A stretch of 12,951 bases of DNA from Deltaproteobacteria bacterium RBG_13_61_14 (GTDB lineage Bacteria > RBG-13-61-14). Location: assembly GCA_001797815.1 (NCBI GenBank), contig MGQK01000071.1:20266-33216 (forward strand), written 5' to 3'. The notes under the pieces were generated by a model. That model ran no database searches, was not told where the DNA came from, and saw only the letters and a program-made list of their open reading frames with translations. Of the stretch, positions 968 to 12,951 are shown piece by piece. Numbering within the stretch: position 1 is the stretch's first letter; each line of letters starts with the position of its first letter. The translations under genes were made by a program, and so were the position numbers.

Positions 968-2347
968 TTAGGGCTTCGCGATCTTAAACTCCACTCTCCG
1001 GTTGACTTGTCGGCCCTCCCCGGTGTCGTTGCCGGCAATCGGCTCCACCTCCCCCCAGCCGGAGCAGCTGAGCCGGCGCGGGTCTATGCCGCCTTGGTGG
1101 ATGAGATAGGTATGCACGGCCAAGGCCCGGCGTAAGGAGAGGTCAATGTTGTATTCGTAGGATCCGGTGGAGTCGGTATGTCCCCGGATTTCGATGTTCA
1201 GGTCCGGGTTCTGGTGAAGCAATTGAATCAGGTTTTCCAGCTCCGCCCTGGAGGCGGCACGCAGGTCGGCCTTGTCCAGGTCGAAGAGGACATTTTTCAG
1301 CACCACCGGCTCCTGGGTGGCGGCCGCGCGGGTGATGGTCTCCTGGGTGACTTTTTCCGGGATAATCGGCGCCGGCTTGGCCGCCTCCGTCATCGGCGCC
1401 TGGGCGACCGGCGCCGGGGCCGGCGGCCGCGGGGTCGGAGCCAGCGCAATCAGCTTCAGCCGGTTCAGCACCAAAGGCATCGCCACGGAGTAGATATCTT
1501 CTTTCCCCAAAGAATCGTCCCGGTTCGAAGAGAGGTAAACCAAATCCCCGGCGGCGGGAATGGTGAAATACATGTCGTTGGCCGGGGTATTAATGACCGG
1601 GCCGAGGTTGACCGGGTCGCTCCATCCGGCCGGCGTCTTGGAAGTGTAGAAGATATCGGACCCGCCGAAACCGCCCAGGCCGTCCGAAGAAAAGTAGAGT
1701 TCCTCGCCGTTGGGATGGATAAAGGCAATGAACTCGTTCCCGGGGGTATTGATCTTCGGGCCCAGGTTCTCCGGCTCACTCCAACCCTGGTCGGTAAGGT
1801 GAGCGGTCCAGATGTCCCAGCCTCCCAGGCCGCCCGGCCGGATCGAAACAAAGTAAAGGGCGCGGCCGTCGAGGGAGAGCGAGGCATTGGCTTCGTTATA
1901 GCGGCTGTTGACCGGCGGGCCCAGGTTTTGGGGCGGGCCCCAGGCGCCGTCCGGCCCCAGCTGGGAAACGTAAAGGTCACACGCGCCCAGTCCATCGGGC
2001 CGCTGGCAGGCGCTGAAGAACATCATGCGCCCGTCGGCGGAAAAAGTGTCGGGTCCTTCATTACCCGCCGTGTTGATGGACGAACCCAGGTTGGTCGGCT
2101 GTCCCCAGTGGCCGTCCGGGCCGCGATGACTCACCCAGATGTCCTGGCCGCCGAGCCCTCCCTCGCGGTCCGAAGCAAAATACAGGGTGTTGCCGTCCGG
2201 CGAGACAAAGGGGGCATAGTCCCGGTCTTTGGAATTGACCATTGACCCCAGGTTGACGGCGTCTTCCGCGGGGACCTGACCCAGGCCCATGCTGGAGCAA
2301 AGAATTAACCCTCCCATCCAGAATGCAAGTTTTACCCCTGATCGCAT
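968..2347 (-). CDS. PD40 beta-propeller repeat protein with C-terminal OmpA peptidoglycan-binding domain
   Basis: 459 residues from the ATG at 2347, chosen because AAGGAGG lies 9 nt upstream; an ATG 33 nt further upstream would overlap that site. A hydrophobic signal sequence spans about residues 5-24. Five WD40-like PD40 blades follow (about 43-290), each with a pattern such as SPDGNTLYFASDREGGLGGQDIW and a spacer NLG-x-x-IN-T. A Pro/Ala-rich linker (about 300-345) leads to an OmpA C-terminal domain (about 350-459). It has GHTDS at 389-393, supplying the Asp that contacts diaminopimelate, LSLRRA at 403-408 with the conserved Arg, and the ending GEGRQVNRRVEF. The protein should be periplasmic or outer-membrane associated and anchored to peptidoglycan. 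It has its own promoter and is separated from the upstream cluster by a terminator. The ligand of the propeller is unknown. Confidence 0.93.
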   Translation of the reverse strand: MRSGVKLAFWMGGLILCSSMGLGQVPAEDAVNLGSMVNSKDRDYAPFVSPDGNTLYFASDREGGLGGQDIWVSHRGPDGHWGQPTNLGSSINTAGNEGPDTFSADGRMMFFSACQRPDGLGACDLYVSQLGPDGAWGPPQNLGPPVNSRYNEANASLSLDGRALYFVSIRPGGLGGWDIWTAHLTDQGWSEPENLGPKINTPGNEFIAFIHPNGEELYFSSDGLGGFGGSDIFYTSKTPAGWSDPVNLGPVINTPANDMYFTIPAAGDLVYLSSNRDDSLGKEDIYSVAMPLVLNRLKLIALAPTPRPPAPAPVAQAPMTEAAKPAPIIPEKVTQETITRAAATQEPVVLKNVLFDLDKADLRAASRAELENLIQLLHQNPDLNIEIRGHTDSTGSYEYNIDLSLRRALAVHTYLIHQGGIDPRRLSCSGWGEVEPIAGNDTGEGRQVNRRVEFKIAKP

Positions 2348-2356
2348 GACTGCCAC

Positions 2357-2363
2357 CCTCCTT
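2357..2363 (-). promoter_or_regulatory. Strong Shine-Dalgarno site deciding the OmpA-like start
   Basis: On the - strand this reads AAGGAGG, 9 nt before the ATG at 2347. It lies inside any reading from the upstream ATG at 2380 and so supports the shorter protein, whose signal peptide then starts cleanly. Confidence 0.85.
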
Positions 2364-2467
2364 AAAAAATATCGGTCCATGATCCAGCCCGCTTCAGAAA
2401 AGATTGTTCCCGCTCTTGAATTGACTGCAGCGCCTATGTTGGTTCCCTTGCCTGCCTTGGTATAATT

Positions 2468-2509: not shown

Positions 2510-2548
2510 AAAAAACCCTGCGCCCGGGCAGGGGGGCGGGTCCCCCCT
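2510..2548 (-). terminator. Intrinsic terminator at the end of the LPP20/CsgG cluster
   Basis: Read on the - strand, CCCTGC (2533-2528) pairs with GCAGGG (2521-2516) around a 6-nt GC-rich loop and is followed directly by six T (2515-2510). An overlapping 7-bp stem AGGGGGG/CCCCCCT (2548-2542 with 2536-2530) can form just before it, so two alternative hairpins compete. It lies 52 nt past the stop of the CsgG-like gene. Confidence 0.8.
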
Positions 2549-2600: not shown

Positions 2601-3590
2601 TTATTTCAGGATCACCAGATCCCCTACCCGGGGCCGATCATTGGCGTCTTTGAGCGCCAGAATGCGGCCGCTGGACATCTTTTCTTCGGACGAGTCAATC
2701 TGGATCAGGGCGATGATCTCCTTGGACCAGCCCAGCTTCTGGCTGGTGGCGGGATGGAGGATGGGTTCGCCCTTGCGGAAGACGATGAATTGCGAGCCGG
2801 GCTGGACCCCCCGGGTGGAGCCGACGTCGGTGAGCACCTGGTCGCCGGAAACCGAGACCACGTAGCCGAGCAGCGGAAATTTGGCCGCGATCTGGGCAGA
2901 AGCCTGGCTGAGGGACTTGCGGCAGGCCTCGGCGTATTCCGACTTGGGATCGCGGTTGCCGGAGACGATGTTGCCCCGCGAGTCCAGGATCAGTTTCTTG
3001 TCCACCCGGCCGACCGATTGCTCGGAGTAGATGACCTTAGCCGTGGACACATCCACGCAGCGGATGTCCACCTGCACCTCGGTCTGCAGGATGTTGTAGG
3101 AAATCTTCTGCACCTCCTCGTAGCTGGTGCCGGTAACCGTGCCGAAAACCACGGCGTCGGCCCCGAGCAGGCGGCCCAGCTCCGCCACCTGGGTGCCGAC
3201 CATATCCGAGAGCTGGAACTCCTGCTCCCGGATCACCTTGTCCAGGCGGGTGCGCTCGACCACGTTGAACTTGCCGGTGTTGTGGAGATAGGTGATGGCC
3301 ATGTCCGCCAGGGAAAGGCCCAGCTCGACCGGGATTTTTTCCGCCCCCTCGAATTCGAGCACGGCAATGGTCCGCCGCGGGTCCTGGCCCCGGGTGAGCT
3401 GATCGAGCATTTGATCGCTCCAGCCCGAGGGCATGGAGAGGTCCGCCGCCGCTGCGGCCGTGGCTTTTTCTTCTTCGGCCTTTTTCTTCCGCGCTTCGAG
3501 CGGCGAGGCCAGGGATAGGCAGCCCATCATCAGCATGATCGGAATCAGCCGGAATGGGTTAGTAAGGTTTCTCACCGACAAAGTTTTCAT
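2601..3590 (-). CDS. CsgG/FlgO-like exported protein with FlgT_C-like C-terminal domain
   Basis: 329 residues from the ATG at 3590, preceded 9 nt upstream by AGGA in an A-rich context; an in-frame ATG at 3632 would overlap the upstream gene and bury the signal peptide. Residues 13-32 are a signal sequence. MMGC at 21-24 is only a weak lipobox, so lipidation at Cys24 (as in true CsgG) is possible and cleavage after LEA at 33 is the alternative. Residues about 73-240 are a CsgG-type domain: RRTIAVLEFEG, VVERTRLDKVIREQ, LGRLLGADAVVFGTVTG, DIRCVDVSTAKVIYSE. Residues 243-329 look like the FlgT C-terminal beta domain: GYVVSVSGDQVLTDVGSTRG, then a lone GD near the end (RVGDLVIL). Last gene of the long - strand run, followed by a terminator. 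Family relatives form outer-membrane or periplasmic rings; its partner here is inferred to be the LPP20 proteins upstream. Confidence 0.85.
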   Translation of the reverse strand: MKTLSVRNLTNPFRLIPIMLMMGCLSLASPLEARKKKAEEEKATAAAAADLSMPSGWSDQMLDQLTRGQDPRRTIAVLEFEGAEKIPVELGLSLADMAITYLHNTGKFNVVERTRLDKVIREQEFQLSDMVGTQVAELGRLLGADAVVFGTVTGTSYEEVQKISYNILQTEVQVDIRCVDVSTAKVIYSEQSVGRVDKKLILDSRGNIVSGNRDPKSEYAEACRKSLSQASAQIAAKFPLLGYVVSVSGDQVLTDVGSTRGVQPGSQFIVFRKGEPILHPATSQKLGWSKEIIALIQIDSSEEKMSSGRILALKDANDRPRVGDLVILK

Positions 3591-3628
3591 GGCAGATTTT
3601 CCTTTTTCCAGATTCAGTGTCGCCTCGG

Positions 3629-4537
3629 TCAATCCACCGGGGTCAGGTCCTTGGTCTCCTCGTGCAGCTCCTTGACGATGGCCGCATACTTGGCCAAATC
3701 AATCGCCGTCCGTTTCCCTTCCCCCGGCAAGGCTTGCAAATGCTTGCGCGCCTGGTTCAGGTTTTGGAGCACAAAAGGAATTTTGAGCGCGTCCGGGCCG
3801 CGGAAGTCTTCCCTGGCCGAGCCGATCAGGTCCGGGATCTGGCGGCCGAGCTCCACTTCGGATTGGACCCCCTTGCCCAACACATACCCGGCCACGGCCA
3901 GGTTGACCGACATGGTGGCGAAATAAGTGATCTCGTCCCGGGTGAACTGGCCCTTTTGCCGCTTGGCCTCTTTGATGACATAAGCCGCTTCTTCCGGGGT
4001 CCACTCCGGCTCGGCGGCCGGCTCGCCGGCCGGTGATGCGGTGGAGGCCTCGGCCGGCGCCGGGCCCGATTCGGTCCCCGGCGGGGGCGCCATTTCCGCC
4101 ACCTGCGTCTCCTGCTTCAATTCTTGCAGTTGCCGCTTGGCTTCGCCCCGGGCCACGTGGTCCTTGGCGTATTTGACCAGGTTCTCCTGGGCGTCGGCGA
4201 GCATGGTCTGGGCGACCTTGAGACTGCCGTAAGCCACCGCGGCGTGCATGCAGACCTCGTCGTAGGCCGGCATGCCCACCTCGCCGAAATAGACTTGCTC
4301 CTTCTCGAATGGATCGGACCGGGTTCCGGCCAAGGAGTCCAACTGCGGGGCCACGTCGGTCAAGGTCAGCGCCCGCTGGAATTTCTTCGGCCCTTTGTCC
4401 TTCTCCCGGTGCTCCCCCCTGCCCCTCCGGCCCAGGGCCAGAGCCGGCACCAGGGACACCACGCACAAGATCATCAGCCCCAGACGCAGGATGCGATGCA
4501 AGGAAGCAGGTGAGACCCAGGTTCTGCGTTTAATCAT
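3629..4537 (-). CDS. Exported protein of unknown function
   Basis: 302 residues; I do not recognise the family. The ATG at 4537 follows GGGAGGT by 6 nt. A basic start (KRR) and a hydrophobic stretch (about 16-35, ending ALA) form a signal peptide. The mature protein opens very basic (GRRGRGEHREKDKGPKK, 36-52). Two helix-rich parts, about 55-145 and 178-300, flank a Pro/Ala/Glu linker (about 149-178). The second has EWTPEEAAYVIKEAKRQKGQF and TYFATMSVNLAVAGYVLGKG. Its only mature cysteine is at about 96. Position is the main clue: it lies 21 nt after the LPP20/CsgG fusion and 38 nt before the CsgG/FlgT_C gene, so it is probably co-expressed with them and may be a helical partner. Confidence 0.75.
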   Translation of the reverse strand: MIKRRTWVSPASLHRILRLGLMILCVVSLVPALALGRRGRGEHREKDKGPKKFQRALTLTDVAPQLDSLAGTRSDPFEKEQVYFGEVGMPAYDEVCMHAAVAYGSLKVAQTMLADAQENLVKYAKDHVARGEAKRQLQELKQETQVAEMAPPPGTESGPAPAEASTASPAGEPAAEPEWTPEEAAYVIKEAKRQKGQFTRDEITYFATMSVNLAVAGYVLGKGVQSEVELGRQIPDLIGSAREDFRGPDALKIPFVLQNLNQARKHLQALPGEGKRTAIDLAKYAAIVKELHEETKDLTPVD

Positions 4538-4558
4538 GGTCTTACCTCCCTGACCTGA

Positions 4559-5752
4559 TCACTCCAGGGACTTGAAGATTTCCTCGACTTTCTGGCTCAC
4601 CTGCTCGGCCAGGAATTCCCCGGCCCGCTCCAGCGAACACGATGCGGCTTTATCGCGCGAGGGCTTGCCGCACTTGGTCTTATCGCCCCAGTCAAAAGCT
4701 TCGTTGACCAGGATCTTGCCGTTGTCGAGGTTGACGATTTTCAACTCGGCCGCGGTCAGGAAGAAGTAGGCCGGAGTGCTGCCGATCATCATCTTGGACG
4801 ATTCGCGGGCCTCGGCGTCGCCCAGGATCAGGTAGTTGCCGCGCAGGCCGGGCAGGCTGCGCAACTGCTCGACCGAGGCATCACCGAGCGAGTCGTAACT
4901 CGTGCCGCGGAAGGCCGCGGCGTTGTCCATCACGTTGAACCCTTTTTGGCGCAGGCCCTGGATGATCGCGTTCTGGACCAGGGCGCTTTGCATGGAAGGA
5001 TTGACTTCGAAGATCTGGACCACGAAGCGGATGGACTCCAGCGCCTGGTCCATGGCCGCCTGGCATTTCCAGACGGTCAGGGCCTCCGCGGCCACCGGCA
5101 CCGGCCGGCCCAGGATCACCGCGAGCATGGCCTCCTTGCCCTCGATCTGCACGAGTTCATTCTGGGCCTTCTGGTAATTGACCAAGGCCCGGGGCGCGTC
5201 ATGGGCCTTGAGCGCCGAGTTGCCTTCGCCGAAGAAGCCCCCGGCCGCCTCGCGCTTCTCGGCGATGAACTTGCGCAGGTTGTCGGCCGCGACCCGCCGC
5301 TCCATCACCGCCAACGCATAGTATTGCTTTTCCTTCTTGTTGTAATAGGTGTCGGCGATGGTGATGCCTTCCAGCTCCAGGTTGACCTTGGCCATGATGT
5401 CGGAGACCACCTCCTGGGTGCCGCGGGTGCGGGCCTTGCTCCGGTGTTTGGTCTGGGCATACTTCTGCTCTTCCGCCACCCGGGTGGTGAGGGTGGATTC
5501 CAGTTGCACCCGGATCTGGCCGCCAATCTCGGCGCGGCCCGAGTTCTCCGCAGTCTCTCGGTCCTTGACCTCGTTGCCGGTATTCTTGGCCCGGCCGATC
5601 CCCACCATGTATTTTTCCGCGGGATATTCCGCCGAGGCCCCTCCGGTCACCCAGTCCGGAACCTTGCCGGCCCAGGCCAGAACCGGAATCCCCAAAGCCA
5701 AGGCCACCAGCACGGCCAGCTTTTGTCCCCTCTCTCCTCTGCTTTCTTTCAT
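4559..5752 (-). CDS. LPP20-domain protein with C-terminal CsgG/TolB-N-like region
   Basis: 397 residues; the ATG follows AAGGAA by 6 nt. Signal peptide 1-28, probable cleavage after AWA. Residues about 31-165 are an LPP20 (FlgP-type) domain: PDWVTGG, then a YMVGIGRA motif, a run of helices beginning RETAENSGRAEIGGQI, and the closing strand QYYALAVMERRVAADNLRKFI. Residues about 174-215 are helical and TPR-like (EGNSALKAHDAPRALVNYQKA). Residues about 255-394 resemble the alpha/beta fold of CsgG/TolB-N proteins: IIQGLRQKGFNVMD, NYLILGDAEA, AELKIVNLDNGKILVNE, AGEFLAEQVSQKVEEIF. So one chain joins the two module types that are separate genes elsewhere in the cluster. There is no lipobox, so it is probably a soluble or associated periplasmic protein. 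The LPP20 call is firm; the C-terminal fold is inferred from pattern. Confidence 0.85.
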   Translation of the reverse strand: MKESRGERGQKLAVLVALALGIPVLAWAGKVPDWVTGGASAEYPAEKYMVGIGRAKNTGNEVKDRETAENSGRAEIGGQIRVQLESTLTTRVAEEQKYAQTKHRSKARTRGTQEVVSDIMAKVNLELEGITIADTYYNKKEKQYYALAVMERRVAADNLRKFIAEKREAAGGFFGEGNSALKAHDAPRALVNYQKAQNELVQIEGKEAMLAVILGRPVPVAAEALTVWKCQAAMDQALESIRFVVQIFEVNPSMQSALVQNAIIQGLRQKGFNVMDNAAAFRGTSYDSLGDASVEQLRSLPGLRGNYLILGDAEARESSKMMIGSTPAYFFLTAAELKIVNLDNGKILVNEAFDWGDKTKCGKPSRDKAASCSLERAGEFLAEQVSQKVEEIFKSLE

Positions 5753-5765
5753 GTTCGCTTCCTTC

Positions 5766-5800
5766 GATCTCCAATCTAAAATCCAAAATCTAAAATTCCT
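5766..5800. repeat. Degenerate heptamer repeat aatcYaa between the fecR-like and LPP20 genes
   Basis: The spacer divides into five 7-bp units: gatctcc, aatctaa, aatccaa, aatctaa, aattcct. It fills the space between the ribosome binding site of the LPP20 gene and the fecR-like stop codon (5799-5801). The unit differs from the heptamers at 8083, 8230, 11029 and 11078. Confidence 0.75.
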
Positions 5801-7001
5801 ATCTCGGCCGGTGCTGTTCCTGGAATTCCCGCCACTTCTTCAGCCATTCCTCTTCCTGCTGCTGCCGCTTCTCAAAATACTCGCGCTGTTGCAGTTCGCG
5901 GCCCAACTCGTATTTCGCCACCAGCGCGTCCAGTTTGCTCGTGTAGCTGTCCAGGGTGGCCTGGGTGGCCTGGTGGGTGCCGGCGACGTCGCGGGCATAA
6001 ACCTGGGCTTCCAGCGCCGCCACTCTTTTCCGCGCCGCGGCCGAGTAATTCTCCGGATGTTCCTTCACGTCCTGGATGAGCTGCTTCAACATCTCATCGC
6101 AGGAGATCAAATAACCGTCCTGGTGCTGGAGGTCGCGGGCCTGGGAGTAGTTCAACTCCAGGGACTGTTTCAAGGCGCTGAGCTTACCTTCGTAAACTTT
6201 CGGCTGGTCCTTGGTGGCCTCGGCTTCCTGGGCCGCGCGTTCGACTCCCTGGAATTCCTTGGCCAGGGTTTGCTGGGCTTGCACCGCGCGCTGATGCCGG
6301 CGTTCCAGTTCCCGGTCCATTTCCTGGGCCATGTGGTCGGCGTTCTTGGCCAGGCGGCGGGAGCGTTCGGAAAGGAAACCCGCCCAGTTGGCGGTCTGAG
6401 GATCATAGGCCTGGGCCGCCGAGGGCTTATCCGTCAGTTCCACGGTCATCTGCTGGTTGGGCACCAGGGTCAACCCCTGGGAGTGCCCTTGAACCTCAAC
6501 TTTTCCCTTTTCCACGGCCACCCGGGAGGAGCAGTCCGCGGCCCCGGCCACGGTAAAGCTGGTGGCCCGGACCCCGGCCACCACGGTGGCGGTCTGCACC
6601 TCCAGGTTGGCGCCCTCTTCCGGCGCGACCAGGGCCTGCAGCCAGCCCTTGAGCAACAGCAGCGAGCTGGAATGGCGGGCATTGGCGCGGCTGTCGAGGA
6701 TCTGGATCCGGGAGGACGGCTGGAGGGTGATCAGGCTGCCGTCATCGAGTTTGATCTGGGCCTTGCCGTTCGGGCCGCTCACCACCCGATCCTGGGCATA
6801 GACCAGGTCTCCCTGGGAAACCGGCCGGGGCTTGTCCTGTCCCACGCTCTGAGCCGTCACCGCGCCGCTGACCGACTGAATTTGTCCTTCCCGCCGGAGC
6901 TCTTGTGCGCTACCAATCGCAGGTTGAAAACCTGCGCCCCAGGCCAGAAAGAAAACGATCACGAGCCAGGCCAGGCGGCGTCCTCTTTTCAGGCTTTCCA
7001 T
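5799..7001 (-). CDS. FecR-domain exported protein with long C-terminal coiled coil
   Basis: 400 residues; the ATG follows GGAGGA by 5 nt. Signal sequence about 8-32. A FecR domain (about 60-185) shows GDLVYAQDRVVSGPNGKAQI, LDDGSLITLQPSSRIQI and the hallmark VQTATVVAGVRATSFTV (135-151). From about 208 to the end the chain is almost all charged or Gln-rich helix with heptad spacing, ending in basic/Gln-rich EKRQQQEEEWLKKWREFQEQ, predicted coiled coil. Classical FecR relays iron signals from TonB receptors to an ECF sigma factor, but no sigma factor, receptor or inner-membrane anchor beyond the signal peptide is seen. This is one of the many secreted FecR-fold proteins with structural or binding roles. 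Only 13 nt follow the upstream stop, so it is in the operon. Residues 22-28 (GAGFQPA) are encoded by a palindrome. Confidence 0.88.
   Translation of the reverse strand: MESLKRGRRLAWLVIVFFLAWGAGFQPAIGSAQELRREGQIQSVSGAVTAQSVGQDKPRPVSQGDLVYAQDRVVSGPNGKAQIKLDDGSLITLQPSSRIQILDSRANARHSSSLLLLKGWLQALVAPEEGANLEVQTATVVAGVRATSFTVAGAADCSSRVAVEKGKVEVQGHSQGLTLVPNQQMTVELTDKPSAAQAYDPQTANWAGFLSERSRRLAKNADHMAQEMDRELERRHQRAVQAQQTLAKEFQGVERAAQEAEATKDQPKVYEGKLSALKQSLELNYSQARDLQHQDGYLISCDEMLKQLIQDVKEHPENYSAAARKRVAALEAQVYARDVAGTHQATQATLDSYTSKLDALVAKYELGRELQQREYFEKRQQQEEEWLKKWREFQEQHRPR
6918..6936. repeat. Palindrome within the fecR-like signal-peptide coding region
   Basis: Perfect 8-bp arms cgcaggtt (6918-6925) and aacctgcg (6929-6936) surround the 3-nt loop gaa. 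Read in the gene frame it gives GAGFQPA at the end of the signal peptide, a place that tolerates insertion. A CTAC lies 7 nt outside the left arm (GTAG on the - strand). It looks like a REP-type element that became coding sequence. Confidence 0.65.
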
Positions 7002-7014
7002 GTTCGTCCTCCAT

Positions 7015-8064
7015 TCACCGGAATTCGCATCCGTAGGGATTTTCGCTGGAATAATCCTTGTGCAACAGGCCGACCGGGATCAGAGCAGGATAAAGGTAGA
7101 GTCCAATGCTTTCCACGTAGTCGGCCCCCTGCTTGGTGCAACGGCCCAACCGCTGGATATCACCAATGCACAAGCTTTTCCCCTCCGGCCAGGCAATGCG
7201 ATCTTTGGCGGACCAGACCTCCCCTTCGCTGCCGGAAAGCGCCTGGGCCAAATCGCCGAAGCCCCCTTCGCCCGGGCCGCAAAGGATGGCCACCTGGTCC
7301 AGGGTCTTCTGGTCCAGCATCTCGTGGAAGAAGACCAGCCGGCCCTGCTGGCCGCAGGTAGGGGAAGAAGTCTGCTTGCTTAAAGTTGCCCCGGGCAAGC
7401 GCAAGGTCACCCGCGAATAGAGCACGCCCTCGGCGCTGAGCCAGCGGTCTTCCACCTGAAACCGGGCAGCCACCAGGCCAGGATCCCAGGAGAAAAGGAT
7501 GACCGACCGCGAGGCATTCTGCAGGTGATAGTCCTGGTTTTGCTCGTAGTCCCGGCGCAAAGAAGCGGTCTGATTGTCCATGGTGCGAACGATGTCCATG
7601 CGGCCGCGCAGGTCGGCGAGCAGAACCTGCACCCAGGCGTTCGGGCCCCAGGCCGTGCTCGCGCCTACCCCTTCAAAGAACAGTTCCTCGCCGGAATTTT
7701 GGAAGCGGGCGCCCCCGTCCACCCAGGCTGGGGCCGGCTGCTCCTTGCCGGGCTTGAGCCGGAGCTCTTTCTCCTGGCCGGGCTTGCACACCCAGGGTTC
7801 CTGGGTGCTCGCCCGCTCCTCGAAAAGGACGGTCAGCCGGTGCGGGCCCGGCACCGCCTCGAACTCGTCCGGGATCGGACCGGCCCGCTTCTCATCCAGG
7901 AAATAAATGCCTTTGGGCTCGCTCTTGCCGGCAACGACCAGCTTTAACCGGCAGTTATCGGTCTCGGGTGGAGAAGCCGCCCAGGCGGGGTTTTCTCCGA
8001 CCCGGGTGCACCAGAGCCAGGTCACCGCGGCTAAGAAGAGGATTGACTTCCAGTGTCCGGGCAT
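7015..8064 (-). CDS. Exported protein with PEGA-like and LPP20-like domains
   Basis: 349 residues from the ATG at 8064. The nearest purine run (GGGAG) is only 1 nt away, so the ribosome site is poor, but an in-frame stop 27 nt upstream leaves no earlier start. Signal sequence about 7-29, cleavage after AWA. Residues about 39-105 look PEGA-like (a short beta domain with VPGPHRLTVLFEE and LRLKPG). Residues about 110-225 carry an LPP20-type core: PAWVDGGARFQNSGEELFFEGVGAS, matching PAWITRGAGAF...LAFYGVGIA in the lipoprotein next upstream and PDWVTGG...YMVGIGRA in the 4559-5752 gene. The C-terminal third is not recognised. The mature protein has seven cysteines (39, 93, 237, 262, 299, 309, 346), suggesting disulfides. 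It lies 13 nt before the fecR-like gene. The LPP20 call is moderate, the PEGA call tentative. Confidence 0.75.
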   Translation of the reverse strand: MPGHWKSILFLAAVTWLWCTRVGENPAWAASPPETDNCRLKLVVAGKSEPKGIYFLDEKRAGPIPDEFEAVPGPHRLTVLFEERASTQEPWVCKPGQEKELRLKPGKEQPAPAWVDGGARFQNSGEELFFEGVGASTAWGPNAWVQVLLADLRGRMDIVRTMDNQTASLRRDYEQNQDYHLQNASRSVILFSWDPGLVAARFQVEDRWLSAEGVLYSRVTLRLPGATLSKQTSSPTCGQQGRLVFFHEMLDQKTLDQVAILCGPGEGGFGDLAQALSGSEGEVWSAKDRIAWPEGKSLCIGDIQRLGRCTKQGADYVESIGLYLYPALIPVGLLHKDYSSENPYGCEFR

Positions 8065-8082
8065 TCTCCCAGTTCCGAGGAG

Positions 8083-8110
8083 CCAGGGTCAGGGATCAGG
8101 GTTTAGCCCT
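8083..8110. repeat. Heptamer repeat cagggNt upstream of the LPP20/PEGA gene
   Basis: Four consecutive 7-bp blocks read ccagggt, cagggat, cagggtt, tagccct; the first three share cagggNt. It begins 19 nt upstream of the start codon at 8064, in the 175-nt spacer. Confidence 0.55.
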
Positions 8111-8111
8111 C

Positions 8112-8136
8112 GTTGCCACCAATAGAGGCGGGCAAC
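8112..8136. repeat. Short inverted repeat in the 8065-8239 spacer
   Basis: gttgcc (8112-8117) and ggcaac (8131-8136) are perfect 6-bp complements with a 13-nt loop. No T-tract follows on either strand, so it is not a terminator; significance is uncertain. Confidence 0.4.
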
Positions 8137-8176
8137 CCCCGCGCTTCTTGGGATACCGTCAAGCCTGGGTAAGGCC

Positions 8177-8200
8177 AGGGCACGGGATGCCGCGCCCTAC
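8177..8200. repeat. REP-like palindrome, family of 9049-9076
   Basis: An imperfect palindrome around gggcacgg and ccgcgccc. On the - strand it begins with GTAG immediately before the hairpin. It is close in sequence to the palindrome at 9049-9076 and lies between the lipoprotein gene and the PEGA/LPP20 gene. Confidence 0.7.
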
Positions 8201-8229
8201 CCGAAGGGCTCCTCTCAGTTCCTGCCCGT

Positions 8230-8243
8230 CGGTCAGCGGTCAG
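8230..8243. repeat. Two heptamers cggtcag overlapping a stop codon
   Basis: cggtcag occurs twice in tandem (8230-8236, 8237-8243). The stop codon of the LPP20 lipoprotein (8240-8242) lies in the second copy, so the repeat has run into the end of the gene. Confidence 0.5.
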
Positions 8244-8845
8244 TTCCCGCTCTCCCGGCGCTTTTGCAACTGAACATCCAGCTCTTTCATGGCATCGTCG
8301 GCGTTCATCTTGATCTCGGCCGAGCGCTTCTTCATTTCCCGCTTCATGCCGTTGGCCACATCGTCAAAGCTGAGCATGGCCAGGGAGTAAAGGGTGCCGT
8401 CCGGCCCGCGCCAGTGGTTGATGATCTGGGAACCCACCAGCGTGGTTTCGGTGATGCTCTTGGTGATGCTGGAGACAAATTGCTCTTCTTCCGAGCTGGA
8501 CATGTCCGAGGCCACGGCCGAGGCCATGTAGTCCTTCATGAAGTTGGCCACATAGGTGTCGAGCGCCCGCGCCAGGTCGGTCCGCGCCCGGGTGTCCGCA
8601 GTCTGCATTTCCAGGGCCCGGTTGGCGATCCCCTGGGCGATGCCCACCCCGTAAAAGGCCAAGCCGCCCGTGTCTTCCTTGAACGCGCCCGCGCCCCGGG
8701 TGATCCAGGCCGGCTCGTTGGCCGCGCCGGATACGCTGGTCTGCTTGGTGACCTCCGGCTCCTTCTTGCCCCCGCCGCAGGCGGCCAGGGCCACGACCAG
8801 CCCCAAAGCCAAGAGCAACGCCACAATCTTCTTCATCCCTTTCAT
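8240..8845 (-). CDS. LPP20-family outer-membrane lipoprotein (FlgP-like fold)
   Basis: 201 residues. The ATG at 8845 follows AAGGAGG by 5 nt; a second ATG nine bases inside is too far from it. A basic start and hydrophobic stretch lead to the lipobox LAAC, giving lipidated Cys23 and an N-terminus CGGGKK, without Asp at +2, which favours the outer membrane. After a short linker comes the LPP20 domain (about 45-165): PAWITRGAGAF, LAFYGVGIAQG, the helix EMQTADTRARTDLARALDTYVANFM, and the closing strand GTLYSLAMLSFDDV. A charged helix ends the protein. It is close to the minimal FlgP/LPP20 architecture and is the founder-like copy among the LPP20 proteins here. It is the first gene after a strong promoter and a leader of about 140 nt. 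The family call is firm; the partner ring is inferred. Confidence 0.92.
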   Translation of the reverse strand: MKGMKKIVALLLALGLVVALAACGGGKKEPEVTKQTSVSGAANEPAWITRGAGAFKEDTGGLAFYGVGIAQGIANRALEMQTADTRARTDLARALDTYVANFMKDYMASAVASDMSSSEEEQFVSSITKSITETTLVGSQIINHWRGPDGTLYSLAMLSFDDVANGMKREMKKRSAEIKMNADDAMKELDVQLQKRRESGN

Positions 8846-8850
8846 TTTGT

Positions 8851-8857
8851 CCTCCTT
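8851..8857 (-). promoter_or_regulatory. Strong ribosome binding site of the LPP20 lipoprotein
   Basis: AAGGAGG on the - strand, 5 nt before the ATG at 8845. It selects this start over the ATG at 8836. Confidence 0.8.
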
Positions 8858-8994
8858 CTTTCCTTACCGGTTGAGTATTTTCAAGCCAGATCCGACCTTT
8901 CCTGTGTCAGTCGTTAAAAGGGAGTGTGCTTGAACTGATGCCCACGCCCGTGAACCCCTTACATTAGATGAAAAAAGCCATGCTTGCAATGCAC

Positions 8995-9023
8995 TTTATA
9001 GAATATTTCCTTCCCGGTGTCAA
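8995..9023 (-). promoter_or_regulatory. Near-consensus sigma70 promoter of the LPP20 lipoprotein unit
   Basis: On the - strand TTGACA (9023-9018) is followed after exactly 17 nt by TATAAA (9000-8995). This is the best promoter in the window. Transcription would begin near 8988, giving a leader of about 140 nt before the ATG at 8845, and would drive the five following genes down to the terminator at 2510 plus the lipoprotein itself. Confidence 0.82.
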
Positions 9024-9048
9024 CCTTGTCCCGATTCCCTCGGTTCCT

Positions 9049-9076
9049 GTAAGGGCACGGCATGCCGTGCCCCTAC
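9049..9076. repeat. 28-bp REP-like palindrome with GTAG foot
   Basis: The two halves (9049-9062 and 9063-9076) are inverted complements with one mismatched pair, centred on gcatgc. On the - strand it opens with GTAG directly before the stem GGGGCACGGCA. It lies 25 bp upstream of the -35 of the lipoprotein promoter and downstream of the TlpA-fusion stop. Confidence 0.8.
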
Positions 9077-9124
9077 AACCGGAGATTAGAGTCAATCTTG
9101 CCAGGAGGCGGCAAAAGACCCTGG

Positions 9125-9925
9125 TCAAGGCAACTTCTGGATCTTGGCCGCGAGATCGGCGATCAGCGGGCCGTAATCTTCGCCGCTCACCGATTGGGAG
9201 AACTCATCCATCTGGAGCTTGGAGCGGGTCTGAAAGATCCGGACCGAAACCCCGGTCACCGGCCCGATCCGGGAAACCGATCCCTCCACCGTGTAGGCCG
9301 AGGCCGCGCCGGCCGCGGCCACCTCCATGCCCCGGCCCTGCAGACCCGCGGCAATCGCCCGTTGGAGCTTTTTCCCCAGGCCCGCCTGCTTGGCCGCGGC
9401 CGTGGCCTCCGTGAAAACCCCGACCGTGATCGCAGTGGACCTTTGCTGGGCACTCAAGCGCTGGACCCCGGCCTGAACCATCGCCTCCACTTCTTGCTGC
9501 TGAAAGCCATACCACTTGCCGATGATCTTGCCATTCTCGTCTATCAGCGCCCCAAGGGGCAGCGAAGTCACCCGGTAGCGCCGCGCCACCATGCCGGTTG
9601 CATCCACCAGCACCGGAAACCGCGCGCCCATGTCCGCCGCCACCGCCTTGAGCTTGGCCGGGTTCTTTTCCTGGTAGCCGACGCCCAGCACCTGCAGGTA
9701 GTCCGGATACCTGGCCGCGAGCTGGCTCAGGAAGGGGATCTCTTTCTTGCAGGGCACGCAACCCTCCTTGAAAAAGGTGAGGAACACCAGCTTGCCCTGG
9801 TATTGGGCCAGGGAATAGGTCTGGCCGTCCACCGACTTCAGCGTCAGCGGCGGAGCCGGCTCCGGCCCCGCGGCCAGCACCATTAAACTCAACCCCGCCA
9901 GAATGACCATCGCGATCCTTTTCAT
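9125..9925 (-). CDS. TlpA-like thioredoxin fused to a CsgG/LpoB-like domain
   Basis: 266 residues; the ATG at 9925 follows a G-rich AGAGGGG stretch by a few nt. Signal sequence 1-19 (LAAG), no lipobox Cys. Residues about 25-155 are a TlpA/AhpC-type thioredoxin fold: LKSVDGQTYSLAQYQGKLVFL, active site CVPC at 56-59, VDATGMVARRYRVTSLPLGALID with the cis-Pro at about 123, and NGKIIGKWYG. CVPC is typical of periplasmic TlpA/ResA thiol reductases. Residues about 163-266 form a second domain with STAITVGVF, AGLGKKLQRAIAAGLQGRGMEV and YTVEGSVSRIGPV...VSVRIFQT. This arrangement of strand, helix, then a 'TVEGSVS' strand recalls the CsgG/LpoB/TolB-N fold. I have not met this fusion as a named family. 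Neighbours rich in cysteine are plausible substrates. Confidence 0.85.
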   Translation of the reverse strand: MKRIAMVILAGLSLMVLAAGPEPAPPLTLKSVDGQTYSLAQYQGKLVFLTFFKEGCVPCKKEIPFLSQLAARYPDYLQVLGVGYQEKNPAKLKAVAADMGARFPVLVDATGMVARRYRVTSLPLGALIDENGKIIGKWYGFQQQEVEAMVQAGVQRLSAQQRSTAITVGVFTEATAAAKQAGLGKKLQRAIAAGLQGRGMEVAAAGAASAYTVEGSVSRIGPVTGVSVRIFQTRSKLQMDEFSQSVSGEDYGPLIADLAAKIQKLP

Positions 9926-9950
9926 CGAATCCCCTCTCTTCGTCGGGAAG

Positions 9951-9968
9951 GCGGCGGCTTGCCGCCGC
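9951..9968. repeat. Palindrome in the leader of the TlpA-fusion gene
   Basis: Perfect 8-bp arms gcggcggc (9951-9958) and gccgccgc (9961-9968) with a 2-nt centre. On the - strand no T-tract follows, so it is not a standard terminator. It would fold in the 5' leader, 25 nt before the start codon, next to an AT-rich stretch. Confidence 0.6.
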
Positions 9969-9976
9969 TCTCAACT

Positions 9977-10006
9977 TTTATGCAATTATGTAAAGTTTAA
10001 AGTAAA
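9977..10006 (-). promoter_or_regulatory. Possible weak promoter of the TlpA-fusion gene
   Basis: On the - strand TTTACT (10006-10001) and CATAAA (9982-9977) are 18 nt apart; each matches its consensus at 4 of 6 positions. The stretch is conspicuously AT-rich. Weak; it may instead be the remains of a repeat element beginning GGGGTCAGAAC. Confidence 0.3.
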
Positions 10007-10021
10007 GTTCTGACCCCATCC

Positions 10022-10918
10022 TTACTTACTTCTTGTTTTCTTCTTCGCTTTCTTGGTTTCCGGCGGTTGCATCTCTTCCGGTCTTTTGCAATTCTGTGCC
10101 CATTGCCTGCCTTGGGCTTCGGGCACCAAGATGGCGCTTATCCATCCCTGAGGCTCCGAGTTGATCCAAGTGGCTTCAATATAATACGTCTTTCCCGCCT
10201 CAACATTTAAATTCAGATTACCAAAAGTTTCGGGTCCAGGGTCTGCATCAGCTACCATACATTGATTCGGCAACATTTCCTGGATAGCGGCTTGGCCTTG
10301 ATCATCGGGCATTCTTAAAAAGATATAGATTCTCGCCTTGCCCAATGGAATTGGTCCCAAATCTGCCGGCAGGCTTCCTGCCCCTGCGGGAGCGGCCGGA
10401 GCCTGTTGCTGGGCCAGCGCGGGGAGCGGAACGTTATCCCCGCAATAATTCCGCACTTTGACCGCGGCCACAGCCACCAATTGGTCCAACTGATCTTCCG
10501 CGCAGGTGCATTCGTCCTTGGTGCTGAATTCCGTGGTGCTGGTCTGAATGTCAATCAACCGCAGCGACAGGATATACTTGGCCCCCAGCTTGACCAGGTC
10601 GCCGGTGACGATCTTCTGCGCTTGCACCAGTTTCCCGATCTCCACCTGGCAGACCGTGTCGTCGCAGGCGTCGGAGATGTTCATCGCCTGCCGCTCCATC
10701 ACCTCTTTCAGCATCGCTTCCTCAATCACCCGGAGCTTCGGGGAGGGAGTCAGCTCGGAACTGAGGAGCGCGCTCAAAGCCTGGGCCACGGCCTTGTCCA
10801 CCGCGCCCGCGGCCTTGATCGGATAAATTGCCACGCTGGTCTTCTTCGGCTCCTGGCTCAGGCTGCTGAAAGCCACCAGCCAGCCGGCCATCACCCCGAA
10901 TACCAGCTTTCGTGTCAT
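10022..10918 (-). CDS. Cys-rich CsgG/TolB-N-like exported protein
   Basis: 298 residues from the ATG at 10918; the frame stays open upstream to 10990, but that would start within a palindrome and hide the signal peptide. The ribosome site is weak (AAGAAG). Signal sequence 1-21. Residues about 26-160 carry the pattern of CsgG-like proteins: SVAIYPIKAAGAVDKAVAQALS, LRVIEEAMLKEVMERQAMN, CDDTVCQVEIGKLVQAQKIVTG, KLGAKYILSLRLIDIQT. A Pro/Ala linker (166-185) leads to a beta domain (about 193-265) with ARIYIFLRMPDDQG and VEAGKTYYIEATW, reminiscent of DUF2846. The tail is Lys-rich (KKAKKKTRSK). Seven mature cysteines (85, 90, 137, 139, 159, 220, 277) and a thioredoxin gene next in line suggest redox-handled folding. 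The C-terminal third is visibly AT-richer than its surroundings. Confidence 0.85.
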   Translation of the reverse strand: MTRKLVFGVMAGWLVAFSSLSQEPKKTSVAIYPIKAAGAVDKAVAQALSALLSSELTPSPKLRVIEEAMLKEVMERQAMNISDACDDTVCQVEIGKLVQAQKIVTGDLVKLGAKYILSLRLIDIQTSTTEFSTKDECTCAEDQLDQLVAVAAVKVRNYCGDNVPLPALAQQQAPAAPAGAGSLPADLGPIPLGKARIYIFLRMPDDQGQAAIQEMLPNQCMVADADPGPETFGNLNLNVEAGKTYYIEATWINSEPQGWISAILVPEAQGRQWAQNCKRPEEMQPPETKKAKKKTRSK

Positions 10919-10935
10919 TGTTTCTTCTTTCGCTT

Positions 10936-10958
10936 CCGCGACCGAAGCGCCCTCGCGG
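10936..10958. repeat. Inverted repeat in the leader of the CsgG-like gene
   Basis: ccgcga (10936-10941) and tcgcgg (10953-10958) form a perfect 6-bp stem with an 11-nt loop, 18 nt upstream of the ATG at 10918. It could shape the leader; no other signal is seen. Confidence 0.4.
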
Positions 10959-10974
10959 CTACCTTGCTTTCGGG

Positions 10975-10996
10975 GCGCGGGTGCCCTCACCCGCGC
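10975..10996. repeat. Palindrome with the same arms as in grpE
   Basis: gcgcgggtg (10975-10983), loop ccct, cacccgcgc (10988-10996). The two 9-bp arms are identical to those inside grpE at 423-444; only the loops differ. It lies in the spacer between the transglutaminase-like and CsgG-like genes. Confidence 0.75.
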
Positions 10997-11007
10997 AACC
11001 TTATTCT

Positions 11008-11063
11008 TTCACGTTCACGTTCACGAAATCAGTGTTCAGTGCACGGTGCACAGTGGACAGTGA
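11008..11063. repeat. Hexamer ttcacg and heptamer acagtgN tandem repeats
   Basis: ttcacg occurs three times in tandem (11008-11025). Four bases later five 7-bp units follow: tcagtgt, tcagtgc, acggtgc, acagtgg, acagtga (11029-11063). Confidence 0.75.
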
Positions 11064-11070
11064 AAATCCA

Positions 11071-11105
11071 GGCCTCATGCCTAATGTCTAATGCCTAATG
11101 CCTCT
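11071..11105. repeat. Heptamer repeat tgYctaa ending at a stop codon
   Basis: Units: ggcctca, tgcctaa, tgtctaa, tgcctaa, tgcctct. The last unit abuts the stop codon of the transglutaminase-like gene (11106-11108) exactly. Confidence 0.75.
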
Positions 11106-12497
11106 TCACCGCTTCAGCACCCAGTTCTTCTCCACCCTGGCCCCGGGCTTGATCTCGATTTTCGCCTCCGCCTTCTGATAACCTGGTCCCTCCACGCTCA
11201 AGCGCTGGGTCCCCGCCGAACACCCGATCACCTTGTAATTGCCGTCCTCGTCCGTGGGAAAGCCCTTGCCGCTCCCGCCTTGCCAGAGATAGACATAAAT
11301 TCCCGAAATCCCCTGGCCCGAGGCATCCGTCACCCGGCCGTAAATCACCCCGCCCGGCTCCAGGACAAAGTCGAGCTTCTTCGCCTCCGGCTGCTCAAAC
11401 GTCACGTTCTTCTTCGCCTCGGCAAACCCTTCCGCGCGCACGCTGATGAAATAGGTCCCGCGGTTCAAGCCTCCAACTCCAAAACGGCCCTTGCGGTCAA
11501 GGGGATAACCCTTGCCCTGGTCGCCCTCCCAGACGATCAAGCTCCCGCTCTTCACCGGCTTGCCCGCACCGTCCTTCGCCACCCCGTAAACCGCGCAAGT
11601 GGCTTGCGGCCCGGTGCGCAGGCTGAGCAGCGGCCGCTTCGGCTCCGGCAGGGCATCCACCACCCGGCTCTGGTCGTCCTCGCTGAAGATGGTCCAAGAG
11701 GTCCCTTCTTCCATGCGGATGTTGCCGTCCTCCCCGCTCACCGTGGTCTCATACCCGGGGTTGAGGTTCGTGCCCGCGATCTGGAAAAGCAAGTGGTGCG
11801 GGTCCACGAAGTTGAGCGAATGCAAAATGTCGGAAAAGACCCAGCCCTGGTCCGGGTAATACACCTCGATCCAGGCGTGGAACCCGCCGCTCTTGATGCT
11901 CACGCCCCAGTATTCCTTGTCAAAGCCCCACTGGCCGCCCGGGGGCAAAAAGCCGCGCGCGTAGCGGGCCGGGATCCCGGCGGCCCGGAGGATGGCCATC
12001 ATCAGCCGGGTCTGGCCGGCGCAGGAGCCGGCCCGGTTGCGATAGACCGAGAGCGCATCCTGCGGCGTGTTCACCTCGTAGCGGATGTTGTCCGCCATCC
12101 AGTCGGCCACGCGGGTGACCGCGTCGGTCTCGGTGGAAGCATAGCCGACCAGTTCCCGGGCCTGTCGCTGGATCTCCGGCCGGGACGATTGGACCTCGGC
12201 TTCGGGTTTCAGAAAGACCTGGAATTGCTCCGGAACCTGGTAGTCGGCCAGCGGATAGCCAGCTTGCGAGCGGAAAGGCTCCAGGGTGATGATGATCTCC
12301 ACCCGCGCGGTCCAGGGCTTGGTCTCGATCACTTTCTGGCTGAAGTTCGCGTTCTGATAGTCCGGAATCTTCTTGATCCCGGAAGGATTGATGATATCCA
12401 GCACTACTCGATGCTTCCCTTCCAGGATCATGGTCTCCGGCAACGCGAGGCCAGGCAAAAGCAAGGCGAGCAAAAGGAATGAACGAAACAGGCGCAT
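11106..12497 (-). CDS. Secreted transglutaminase-like protein with two carboxypeptidase-regulatory-like repeats
   Basis: 463 residues from the ATG at 12497, preceded by GGAGG with 6-nt spacing; the ATG two codons upstream sits on that site and the frame further up is not signal-like. Signal sequence 1-20. Residues about 60-235 form a transglutaminase/papain-like core: AVTRVADWMADNIRYE, RNRAGSCAGQTRLMMAILRAAGIPARYARGF with Cys159, GFHAWIEVYY with His207, and WVFSDI with Asp223, so the full Cys-His-Asp triad is present. Residues about 302-380 and 384-463 are two related beta-sandwich repeats of the carboxypeptidase-regulatory type: VYGVAKDGAGKPV...GKGYPLDRKGRFGVGGL and IYGRVTDASGQGI...GKGFPTDEDGNYKVIGC. 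Such enzymes cleave or cross-link peptides outside the cytoplasm. The gene follows the truncated LPP20-like gene after 43 nt. Substrate unknown. Confidence 0.93.
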   Translation of the reverse strand: MRLFRSFLLLALLLPGLALPETMILEGKHRVVLDIINPSGIKKIPDYQNANFSQKVIETKPWTARVEIIITLEPFRSQAGYPLADYQVPEQFQVFLKPEAEVQSSRPEIQRQARELVGYASTETDAVTRVADWMADNIRYEVNTPQDALSVYRNRAGSCAGQTRLMMAILRAAGIPARYARGFLPPGGQWGFDKEYWGVSIKSGGFHAWIEVYYPDQGWVFSDILHSLNFVDPHHLLFQIAGTNLNPGYETTVSGEDGNIRMEEGTSWTIFSEDDQSRVVDALPEPKRPLLSLRTGPQATCAVYGVAKDGAGKPVKSGSLIVWEGDQGKGYPLDRKGRFGVGGLNRGTYFISVRAEGFAEAKKNVTFEQPEAKKLDFVLEPGGVIYGRVTDASGQGISGIYVYLWQGGSGKGFPTDEDGNYKVIGCSAGTQRLSVEGPGYQKAEAKIEIKPGARVEKNWVLKR

Positions 12498-12503
12498 CTC
12501 CAT

Positions 12504-12508
12504 CCTCC
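12504..12508 (-). promoter_or_regulatory. Ribosome binding site deciding the transglutaminase start
   Basis: GGAGG on the - strand, 6 nt before the ATG at 12497. The in-frame ATG at 12503 directly abuts it and so cannot use it. Confidence 0.75.
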
Positions 12509-12517
12509 AGTTTGTAG

Positions 12518-12540
12518 CCCGCCCCTCGAAGAGGGGTGGG
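12518..12540. repeat. REP-like palindrome with GTAG foot between two genes
   Basis: cccgcccctc (12518-12527) and gaggggtggg (12531-12540) pair over 10 positions with one mismatch around loop gaa. On the + strand GTAG (12515-12518) stands at the foot of the hairpin. It abuts the stop codon of the LPP20-like gene (12541-12543) and lies just upstream of the transglutaminase ribosome site. Confidence 0.75.
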
Positions 12541-12951
12541 TTATTCGACGACGACCACCACCCGGGCATTGTCCAGGTAACGGTATTTCTCGTCGCTGGC
12601 TTTGATCTTGGCCGCGCCGCTCGGCTTGAGCACGATCTTGTTCTCCACCGTATCCTCCACCTCCTTCGGCTCCAGCACCAGCGGCTCGCCGGTGTAGCGG
12701 CCGCCGGGGGTCAGCCGCGGCTCGGTAGTCGCGGCGTCGGGCGAGCGGGCCCAGCCGGACACCCCCATCTTGCCCACGGCGGAGTTGCTCATGTCCCCGG
12801 AAAAATAGATCACGTCGTAGCTGTCCATCAACCGGGGGAACAGGCACGGAACAAAGCCGGTGCCCCGCGTGTCCACGATCAGGCCGCTGATCGGGCCTTG
12901 TTTTGCTATCCAGGCCTGCTCATCAAAGGCCGGCTCCGGTTTTCGCGGCGG
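12541..12951 (-). CDS. LPP20-family-associated protein, C-terminal part (5' end outside window)
   Basis: The frame is open from the window edge to TAA at 12541-12543, about 136 residues. A valine GTG codon at 12876 is not the true start, since the frame continues upstream. It begins PPRKPEPAFDEQ and then shows ISGLIVDTRGTGFVPCLFPRL, VIYFSGDMSNSAVGKMGVSGWARS, RYTGEPLVLEPKEV and a final NARVVVVVE. This matches from memory the C-terminal region of large LPP20-type exported proteins, with 'TGLIVDARGLGxRPA' and a terminal 'CRVMIVxD'. The LPP20 part itself would lie outside the window, so the call is moderate. It heads the visible run and is followed by the transglutaminase-like gene after 43 nt. 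Confidence 0.65.
   Translation of the reverse strand, partial: PPRKPEPAFDEQAWIAKQGPISGLIVDTRGTGFVPCLFPRLMDSYDVIYFSGDMSNSAVGKMGVSGWARSPDAATTEPRLTPGGRYTGEPLVLEPKEVEDTVENKIVLKPSGAAKIKASDEKYRYLDNARVVVVVE

Follow-up and report, generated by a model that had tools for sequence, protein, structure and literature searches.

How the parts of a flagellar outer-membrane ring come to lie together in a genome without the flagellar genes flgI and flhA is the question raised by one stretch of Deltaproteobacteria bacterium RBG_13_61_14 (contig MGQK01000071.1, positions 20,266 to 33,216; C71:20266-33216 in our labelling). This stretch of 12,951 nucleotides, here termed the window, belongs to an assembly of 4.74 Mb in 132 contigs that is 95% complete (working label G000). 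A sequence-only reading had described ten successive exported minus-strand genes in it as a possible undescribed FlgO/FlgP/FlgT-like system, from which it inferred an outer-membrane ring or channel. From sequence comparison, five of these genes constitute a core: three LPP20-type genes (LPP20-short, LPP20-mid and LPP20-long), a gene for a CsgG-type protein and a gene for a TlpA-type oxidoreductase, referred to below by name or by the lower coordinate (Table 1). Our preferred but tentative reading is that the segment 10918-2601 may encode a non-flagellar periplasmic scaffold that is tethered to the outer membrane and acts on peptidoglycan and on the integrity of the outer membrane.

Domain content of the gene row

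Minus-strand open reading frames run from beyond 12951 to 968, and the N termini in the 12951-2601 run look signal-peptide-like by eye, in agreement with the ten successive exported genes proposed. In the order of transcription from 11106, Pfam assigns transglutaminase and CarboxypepD_reg domains, a weak CsgG/TolB_N match in 10022, TlpA/ResA in 9125, a weak LPP20 match in 8240, nothing in 7015, FecR in 5799, LPP20 in 4559, nothing in 3629, CsgG in 2601, and PD40 with OmpA in 968. The transglutaminase, TlpA and FecR domains had all been named correctly in the sequence-only reading, which proved largely right overall, with one of its eight domain calls (LPP20 in 12541) not confirmed.

Table 1. 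Genes and terminator-like sites of the window, by position
Feature	Coordinates	Strand	Evidence and remarks
Exported orphan, C-terminal part only	12541..12951	-	N-terminal part beyond N run at window end
Exported transglutaminase-like protein with CarboxypepD_reg/PEGA repeats	11106..12503	-	PF01841 6.6e-24, PF13620 1.3e-22
Terminator-like hairpin	11084-11068	-	3' of 11106 gene; pattern match
CsgG/TolB_N-like exported protein, core	10022..10918	-	Pfam, weak: CsgG 0.001, TolB_N 0.0046
TlpA/ResA-type thiol-disulfide oxidoreductase (CVPC), core	9125..9925	-	AhpC-TSA 7.8e-19
LPP20-short lipoprotein, core	8240..8845	-	Lipobox ...ALAAC23; PF02169 0.0013, below Pfam cut-off
LPP20-mid, cysteine-rich (8 Cys), core	7015..8064	-	LPP20 domain at about residues 112-229
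FecR-domain protein, helical tail; accessory	5799..7001	-	PF04773 3.6e-16
LPP20-long, core	4559..5752	-	LPP20/SHS2 domain, helical linker, CsgG/TolB_N-like C-terminal domain; PF02169 2.7e-10
Exported orphan, accessory	3629..4537	-	No Pfam or NCBIfam match
FlgT M+C-like protein: CsgG/LpoB-type domain and FlgT_C-like beta domain	2601..3590	-	PF03783 2.4e-18
Terminator-like hairpin with T run	2516..2533	-	Just 3' of 2601 gene; pattern match only
PD40 repeats and OmpA peptidoglycan-binding domain	968..2380	-	Pfam; next gene downstream of 2601

Three of the four LPP20 proteins proposed for the window hold up. LPP20-long passes the gathering score of PF02169 (41.0 vs 25.9 bits); LPP20-short and LPP20-mid score below it and are tied to the family through relatives. 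LPP20-short is 40-43% identical to LPP20-short relatives in other genomes and ~41% identical to a protein (3784-4371) of locus L142 that passes PF02169 (4.6e-6). Residues 112-221 of LPP20-mid, which has no Pfam match, align with an LPP20-short relative (blastp 2e-9, 33%), and HHalign connects LPP20-mid to the LPP20-short alignment at 94.5%. The LPP20-short family profile finds matches in 46 of 386 genomes sampled across bacteria and none in a sequence search of the PDB. The fourth protein, assigned from the C-terminal part at 12541-12951, drops out: neither piece of the gene matches any LPP20 profile, and HHalign is negative too. An N run in the scaffold breaks this gene and leaves the full protein unreadable.

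CsgG/FlgO/TolB-N-type regions, as had been proposed, are found in four proteins. The 2601 protein clears the PF03783 gathering score (66.6 vs 20.8 bits), which 10022 misses at 18.9 bits; HHalign relates 10022 to a CsgG alignment (A6) at 95.7%, and its closest relatives are the CsgG proteins of L142 and L144 (1e-17 to 1e-19). The C terminus of LPP20-long adopts a CsgG/PelC/TolB_N-like fold in its model, and the C terminus of 9125 scores 28.4 bits against the LPP20-long profile, within the C-terminal domain of the latter, so that 9125 appears by sequence to be TlpA fused to a domain resembling that of LPP20-long. In L142, the TlpA protein (8122-9045) is instead fused to LytR_C. The 2601 protein falls under the cut-offs of the FlgO domain PF17680 (20.5 bits, cut-off 22.6) and of NCBIfam LpoB TIGR02722 (22.8 bits, cut-off 110.55), the latter being reached by no protein of the window. 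Five further 10022-type CsgG-like proteins, several with a C-x4-C motif, are encoded away from the operon in the same genome (C94, C126, C82, C63 and C83).

Structural comparison with FlgT and HP1454

The proteins of 4559 and 2601 were modelled as monomers with AlphaFold (AF2), with a predicted local distance difference test score (pLDDT) of 81 and 84.5, respectively. In a Foldseek search, residues 54/70 to 329 of the 2601 model match FlgT (3w1e, 2.3e-17) and the Vibrio LPHT ring (8z5n, 1e-16), with CsgG structures far lower at about 3e-7. The FlgT_C-like end attributed to this protein is supported by the fold match and by Pfam matches among 28 of its relatives, which recover FlgT_C in 12, FlgT_M in 15, LpoB in 27 and CsgG in all 28. 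For the C-terminal domain of 2601, there is a further resemblance, to the C-terminal region of TsaP (3jc8), a LysM protein associated with the type IV pilus secretin. For the LPP20-long model, the best solved match is HP1454 of Helicobacter (4kzs, 7.5e-7) and the second is FlgT (3w1e, 8.3e-7), followed by the LPHT ring, CsgG, GNA1162, PelC and TolB; the comparison with 5ok8 gives a Z score of 9.7. As modelled, LPP20-long resembles HP1454 and the N and M domains of FlgT. The three FlgT domains are predicted to be distributed over two proteins, N and M in 4559 and M and C in 2601, and none of the proteins has all three.

According to Drobnic et al. (PMC12222027), an insert placed between the SHS2 helix and strand 2, a long beta-hairpin in FlgP itself, correlates with ring formation across the FlgP family. 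At this position, the LPP20-long model has helices at residues 61-103 and 112-122 and a strand at 131-138 (pLDDT 57-79), and a FlgP-type beta-hairpin insert is predicted to be missing. Because the stretch after the SHS2 helix is helical, at moderate confidence, a FlgP-type disk is disfavoured for this domain; rings formed via the CsgG/PelC-like domains may still be compatible with the helical stretch. Inspection of 2601 by eye shows no evident amphipathic transmembrane hairpin. The ring or channel put forward in the sequence-only reading is left unproven by these features.

Recurrence of the core and distribution of flagellar genes

The five core genes recur in two metagenome-assembled genomes (MAGs) of other lineages, one from Lake Pavin (locus L142, genome G386) and STA_72 (L144, G387), both in the order LPP20-short, LPP20-mid, LPP20-long, CsgG, TlpA. 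The order in the window (CsgG, TlpA, short, mid, FecR, long) is a circular permutation of this arrangement, and the CsgG proteins of both MAGs are nearest to 10022, not to 2601. Looser sets are found at L108 of G189 (CsgG, CsgG, long, short, mid, TlpA) and at L097 of G146 (TlpA, one gene, CsgG, short). Among 42 LPP20-short loci, counted within 6 genes in each case, another LPP20 gene is present at 24, a CsgG/LpoB gene at 17, a tetratricopeptide repeat (TPR) protein gene at 10, a trypsin-like protease gene at seven and a TlpA gene at three. Such looser combinations of LPP20 with LpoB/CsgG, a TPR protein and at times a trypsin-like protease are widespread, and the Campylobacter cj0089-cj0091 type is among them. 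The related cluster L083 holds a true LpoB (PF13036, 4.6e-43). At L146, L148 and L152, LPP20-short is followed by an exported trypsin-like (Trypsin_2) protease and then by LpoB and a TPR protein; L154, L155, L156 and L160 share this arrangement in part.

FlgI and FlhA searches returned no match in the genome of the window, in the two further genomes of its order used for comparison (G001 and G002), or in G386, G387 and G388 (L143). FlgI is present in 14 of 30 other genomes searched (9/18 in one set, 5/12 in a second). In the set of 18, it is either on a different contig from the LPP20 cluster or some 300 kb away from it, except in G138, in which one LPP20 gene is about 14 kb from FlgI. All three genomes in which the full five-gene core was seen, in the arrangements given above, are FlgI- and FlhA-negative, and the looser sets L097 and L108 are in flagellated ones. 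The sequence-only reading of multiplied and fused modules of FlgO/FlgP/FlgT type, with no flagellar gene in view, is borne out: LPP20 and CsgG domains are recovered, the core set recurs, and FlgI and FlhA find no match in this genome, L142 or L144.

Comparison with known systems

Similar to the FlgO/FlgP/FlgT H-/T-ring of Vibrio, the window encodes LPP20/SHS2 domains, a TolB_N-like middle domain and an FlgT_C-like beta domain, and in the fold comparison Vibrio FlgT ranks first for 2601 and second for LPP20-long. The differences are that the genome lacks FlgI and FlhA matches, that the three FlgT domains are predicted to be split over two genes, and that three LPP20 genes and TlpA are added in the operon. 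The alpha/beta fold of the CsgG-type domains is shared with E. coli LpoB (the activator of PBP1B), CsgG, PelC and the N-domain of TolB; compared with these, 2601 carries the extra FlgT_C-like domain.

A second resemblance is to Campylobacter and Helicobacter, in which an LPP20 gene likewise stands beside an LpoB/CsgG-type gene. The cj0089-cj0090-cj0091 genes of Campylobacter form an operon of three lipoproteins; the cj0091 mutant is reduced in adherence and early colonisation, and the cj0089 and cj0091 mutants are normally motile (PMC3100323). Helicobacter supplies the LPP20-type proteins HP1456 and HP1454, the latter being the top match of LPP20-long, and the LpoB type is represented by HP1457/Cj0091; HP1456 and HP1457 were already known as LPP20 and as an LpoB homologue (PMC11756786, PMC11394524). 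The two species groups also have a TPR lipoprotein, Cj0089/HP0018; the window has TlpA, FecR and the FlgT M+C protein, and no window protein has a TPR match in Pfam. In many enterohepatic Helicobacter species, hp0018 adjoins hp1457, and loss of HP0018, which co-precipitates AmiA and MltD, leads to hypervesiculation and less helical cells (PMC11394524). In a dsb double mutant, Cj0089 and the motor protein PflA both go undetected (PMC8708908). These data on the Campylobacter and Helicobacter proteins, which concern relatives and not the window operon itself, support a role in the envelope or peptidoglycan and the involvement of a thiol-disulfide enzyme. Given the cj0089-cj0091 operon and the known Helicobacter pair, which relate the window to operons already described in Campylobacterota, the claim of an undescribed system holds only in part; in the open-access literature, no paper was found with both LPP20 and CsgG, or with three of FlgP, CsgG-like, LpoB and TolB.

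The flagellar disks of Campylobacter (FlgP, the HtrA-like PflC, PflD, and the TPR proteins PflA and PflB) use the same classes of parts as L146, L148 and L152. These loci differ in also holding LpoB, and their proteases have no PDZ match in Pfam.

Function of the core operon

To the scaffold reading we give somewhat less than an even chance. The LPP20-short lipoprotein would anchor the assembly beneath the outer membrane, on its inner face, and the SHS2 and CsgG/TolB_N domains of LPP20-long and the CsgG-type proteins would stack into a scaffold as FlgT does. Contact of the scaffold with peptidoglycan or with the enzymes that act on it, as made by LpoB and proposed for HP0018/HP1457 of Helicobacter, would keep cell-wall growth coupled to outer-membrane integrity. 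TlpA would set the disulfide state of the cysteine-bearing 10022 (seven Cys) and LPP20-mid proteins. FlgO/FlgP/FlgT and the Campylobacter basal disk would then be flagellum-specific uses of the same parts.

Several points weigh against this reading. The role of the operon is drawn from comparison of sequences and models, and its link to peptidoglycan comes by analogy from LpoB-type relatives rather than from the genes of the window; judged by the curated cut-off, the core CsgG does not count as an LpoB. In G001 and G002, the order-level relatives, LPP20 genes occur singly and not as this operon, and no partner elsewhere is known for FecR, the 3629 orphan or 12541. Matches to the architecture of 2601 are present in 195 of the 386 genomes, and it is so widespread that its place in the operon may be incidental; because it is so common, a 2601-type match alone says little. 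The cysteine pair of 10022 is characteristic of a subfamily and occurs mostly at loci with no TlpA nearby.

An FlgO/FlgP/FlgT-like outer-membrane ring around another envelope-spanning machine (a pilus, secretin or exporter) is unlikely. In its favour, FlgT and the LPHT ring are the best solved matches of 2601 and the second and third of LPP20-long, the C terminus of 2601 is TsaP-like, and the CsgG, PelC and TraT relatives assemble as 9-12-mers. The modelled LPP20 domain, however, lacks the hairpin insert that accompanies ring formation (PMC12222027), and the conserved core holds no secretin, pilus or export gene. The view that unrelated envelope genes, without a function in common, form a loose island here is rather more doubtful. 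It would account for FecR, the 3629 orphan, the transglutaminase and 12541, which lack conserved partners, and for the order-level relatives without the operon, but not for a five-gene core kept in distant genomes or for the recurrent linkage of LPP20, LPP20 and CsgG genes.

A CsgG-type outer-membrane export channel, for a cargo not named, is improbable. The PF03783 match of 2601 speaks for it, as does the A6 profile, which finds E. coli CsgG (1.9e-16) with a match that takes in the first transmembrane hairpin region; however, the fold search puts FlgT far above CsgG for 2601, the strands of 2601 that correspond to the hairpin are polar by eye, no cargo gene is present, and the match of 10022, the core CsgG, to CsgG covers the N-terminal domain only in part. 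A relic of a lost flagellum, with FlgO/P/T-like genes retained, would fit the FlgT fold likeness and the presence of FlgI in nearly half of the other genomes searched but is very improbable, given the distance of FlgI from nearly all LPP20 clusters in the 18-genome set, the three full-core genomes without FlgI and FlhA, and a combination of TlpA with three LPP20 genes that matches no known flagellar set.

The sequence-only interpretation, flagellar-ring parts without a flagellum, is partly supported and appears right in kind. FlgP, FlgO and FlgT have been studied nearly always as flagellar add-ons; the same domains in a conserved operon of FlgI- and FlhA-negative genomes make that operon a candidate ancestral or parallel system and a lead on the origin of the flagellar H-/T-ring and basal-disk proteins. 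Lpp20, HP1454, HP0018, Cj0089-Cj0091 and LpoB-like lipoproteins would thereby be joined in one recurrent module. Going beyond the scaffold reading, the operon and its relatives could represent an ancient flagellum-independent outer-membrane/peptidoglycan scaffold, comprising two to three LPP20 proteins, a CsgG/LpoB type, and TlpA or a trypsin-like protease plus TPR, from which recruitment, one module at a time, gave rise to the FlgO/FlgP/FlgT rings and the disks of Campylobacter; we consider this proposal speculative and unlikely.

Cysteines, flanking genes and unit limits

A specific action of TlpA on the C85/C90 pair of 10022 was considered and rejected. In a small first set, a C-x4-C pair was present in six of seven CsgG proteins at TlpA loci and in one of 78 others; a wider search found the pair common in the 10022-type subfamily, mostly without a nearby TlpA. 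Adjacency of CsgG and TlpA occurs once more, in G008, another unrelated genome: a CsgG gene of the 10022 type that has the cysteine pair directly precedes a TlpA gene (L214, 4203-5735), in a 13 kb stretch in which no LPP20 gene was found.

Two accessory genes lie inside the operon, and neither the FecR protein (5799) nor the 3629-4537 orphan has a homologue among the compared loci. A single transcription unit from 10918 to 2601, with its limits, is only suggested, because terminator-like sites in the window are no commoner than in shuffled sequence and a promoter scan of the window found no promoter. The transglutaminase gene (11106) flanks the conserved core and lies outside it, probably forming a separate unit with 12541, and the 968-2380 gene is probably another such unit. 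The PD40 and OmpA protein of 968-2380 scores below the NCBIfam cut-offs of the CHU_0125 and PorE families and resembles both (3e-93 and 5e-90, respectively).

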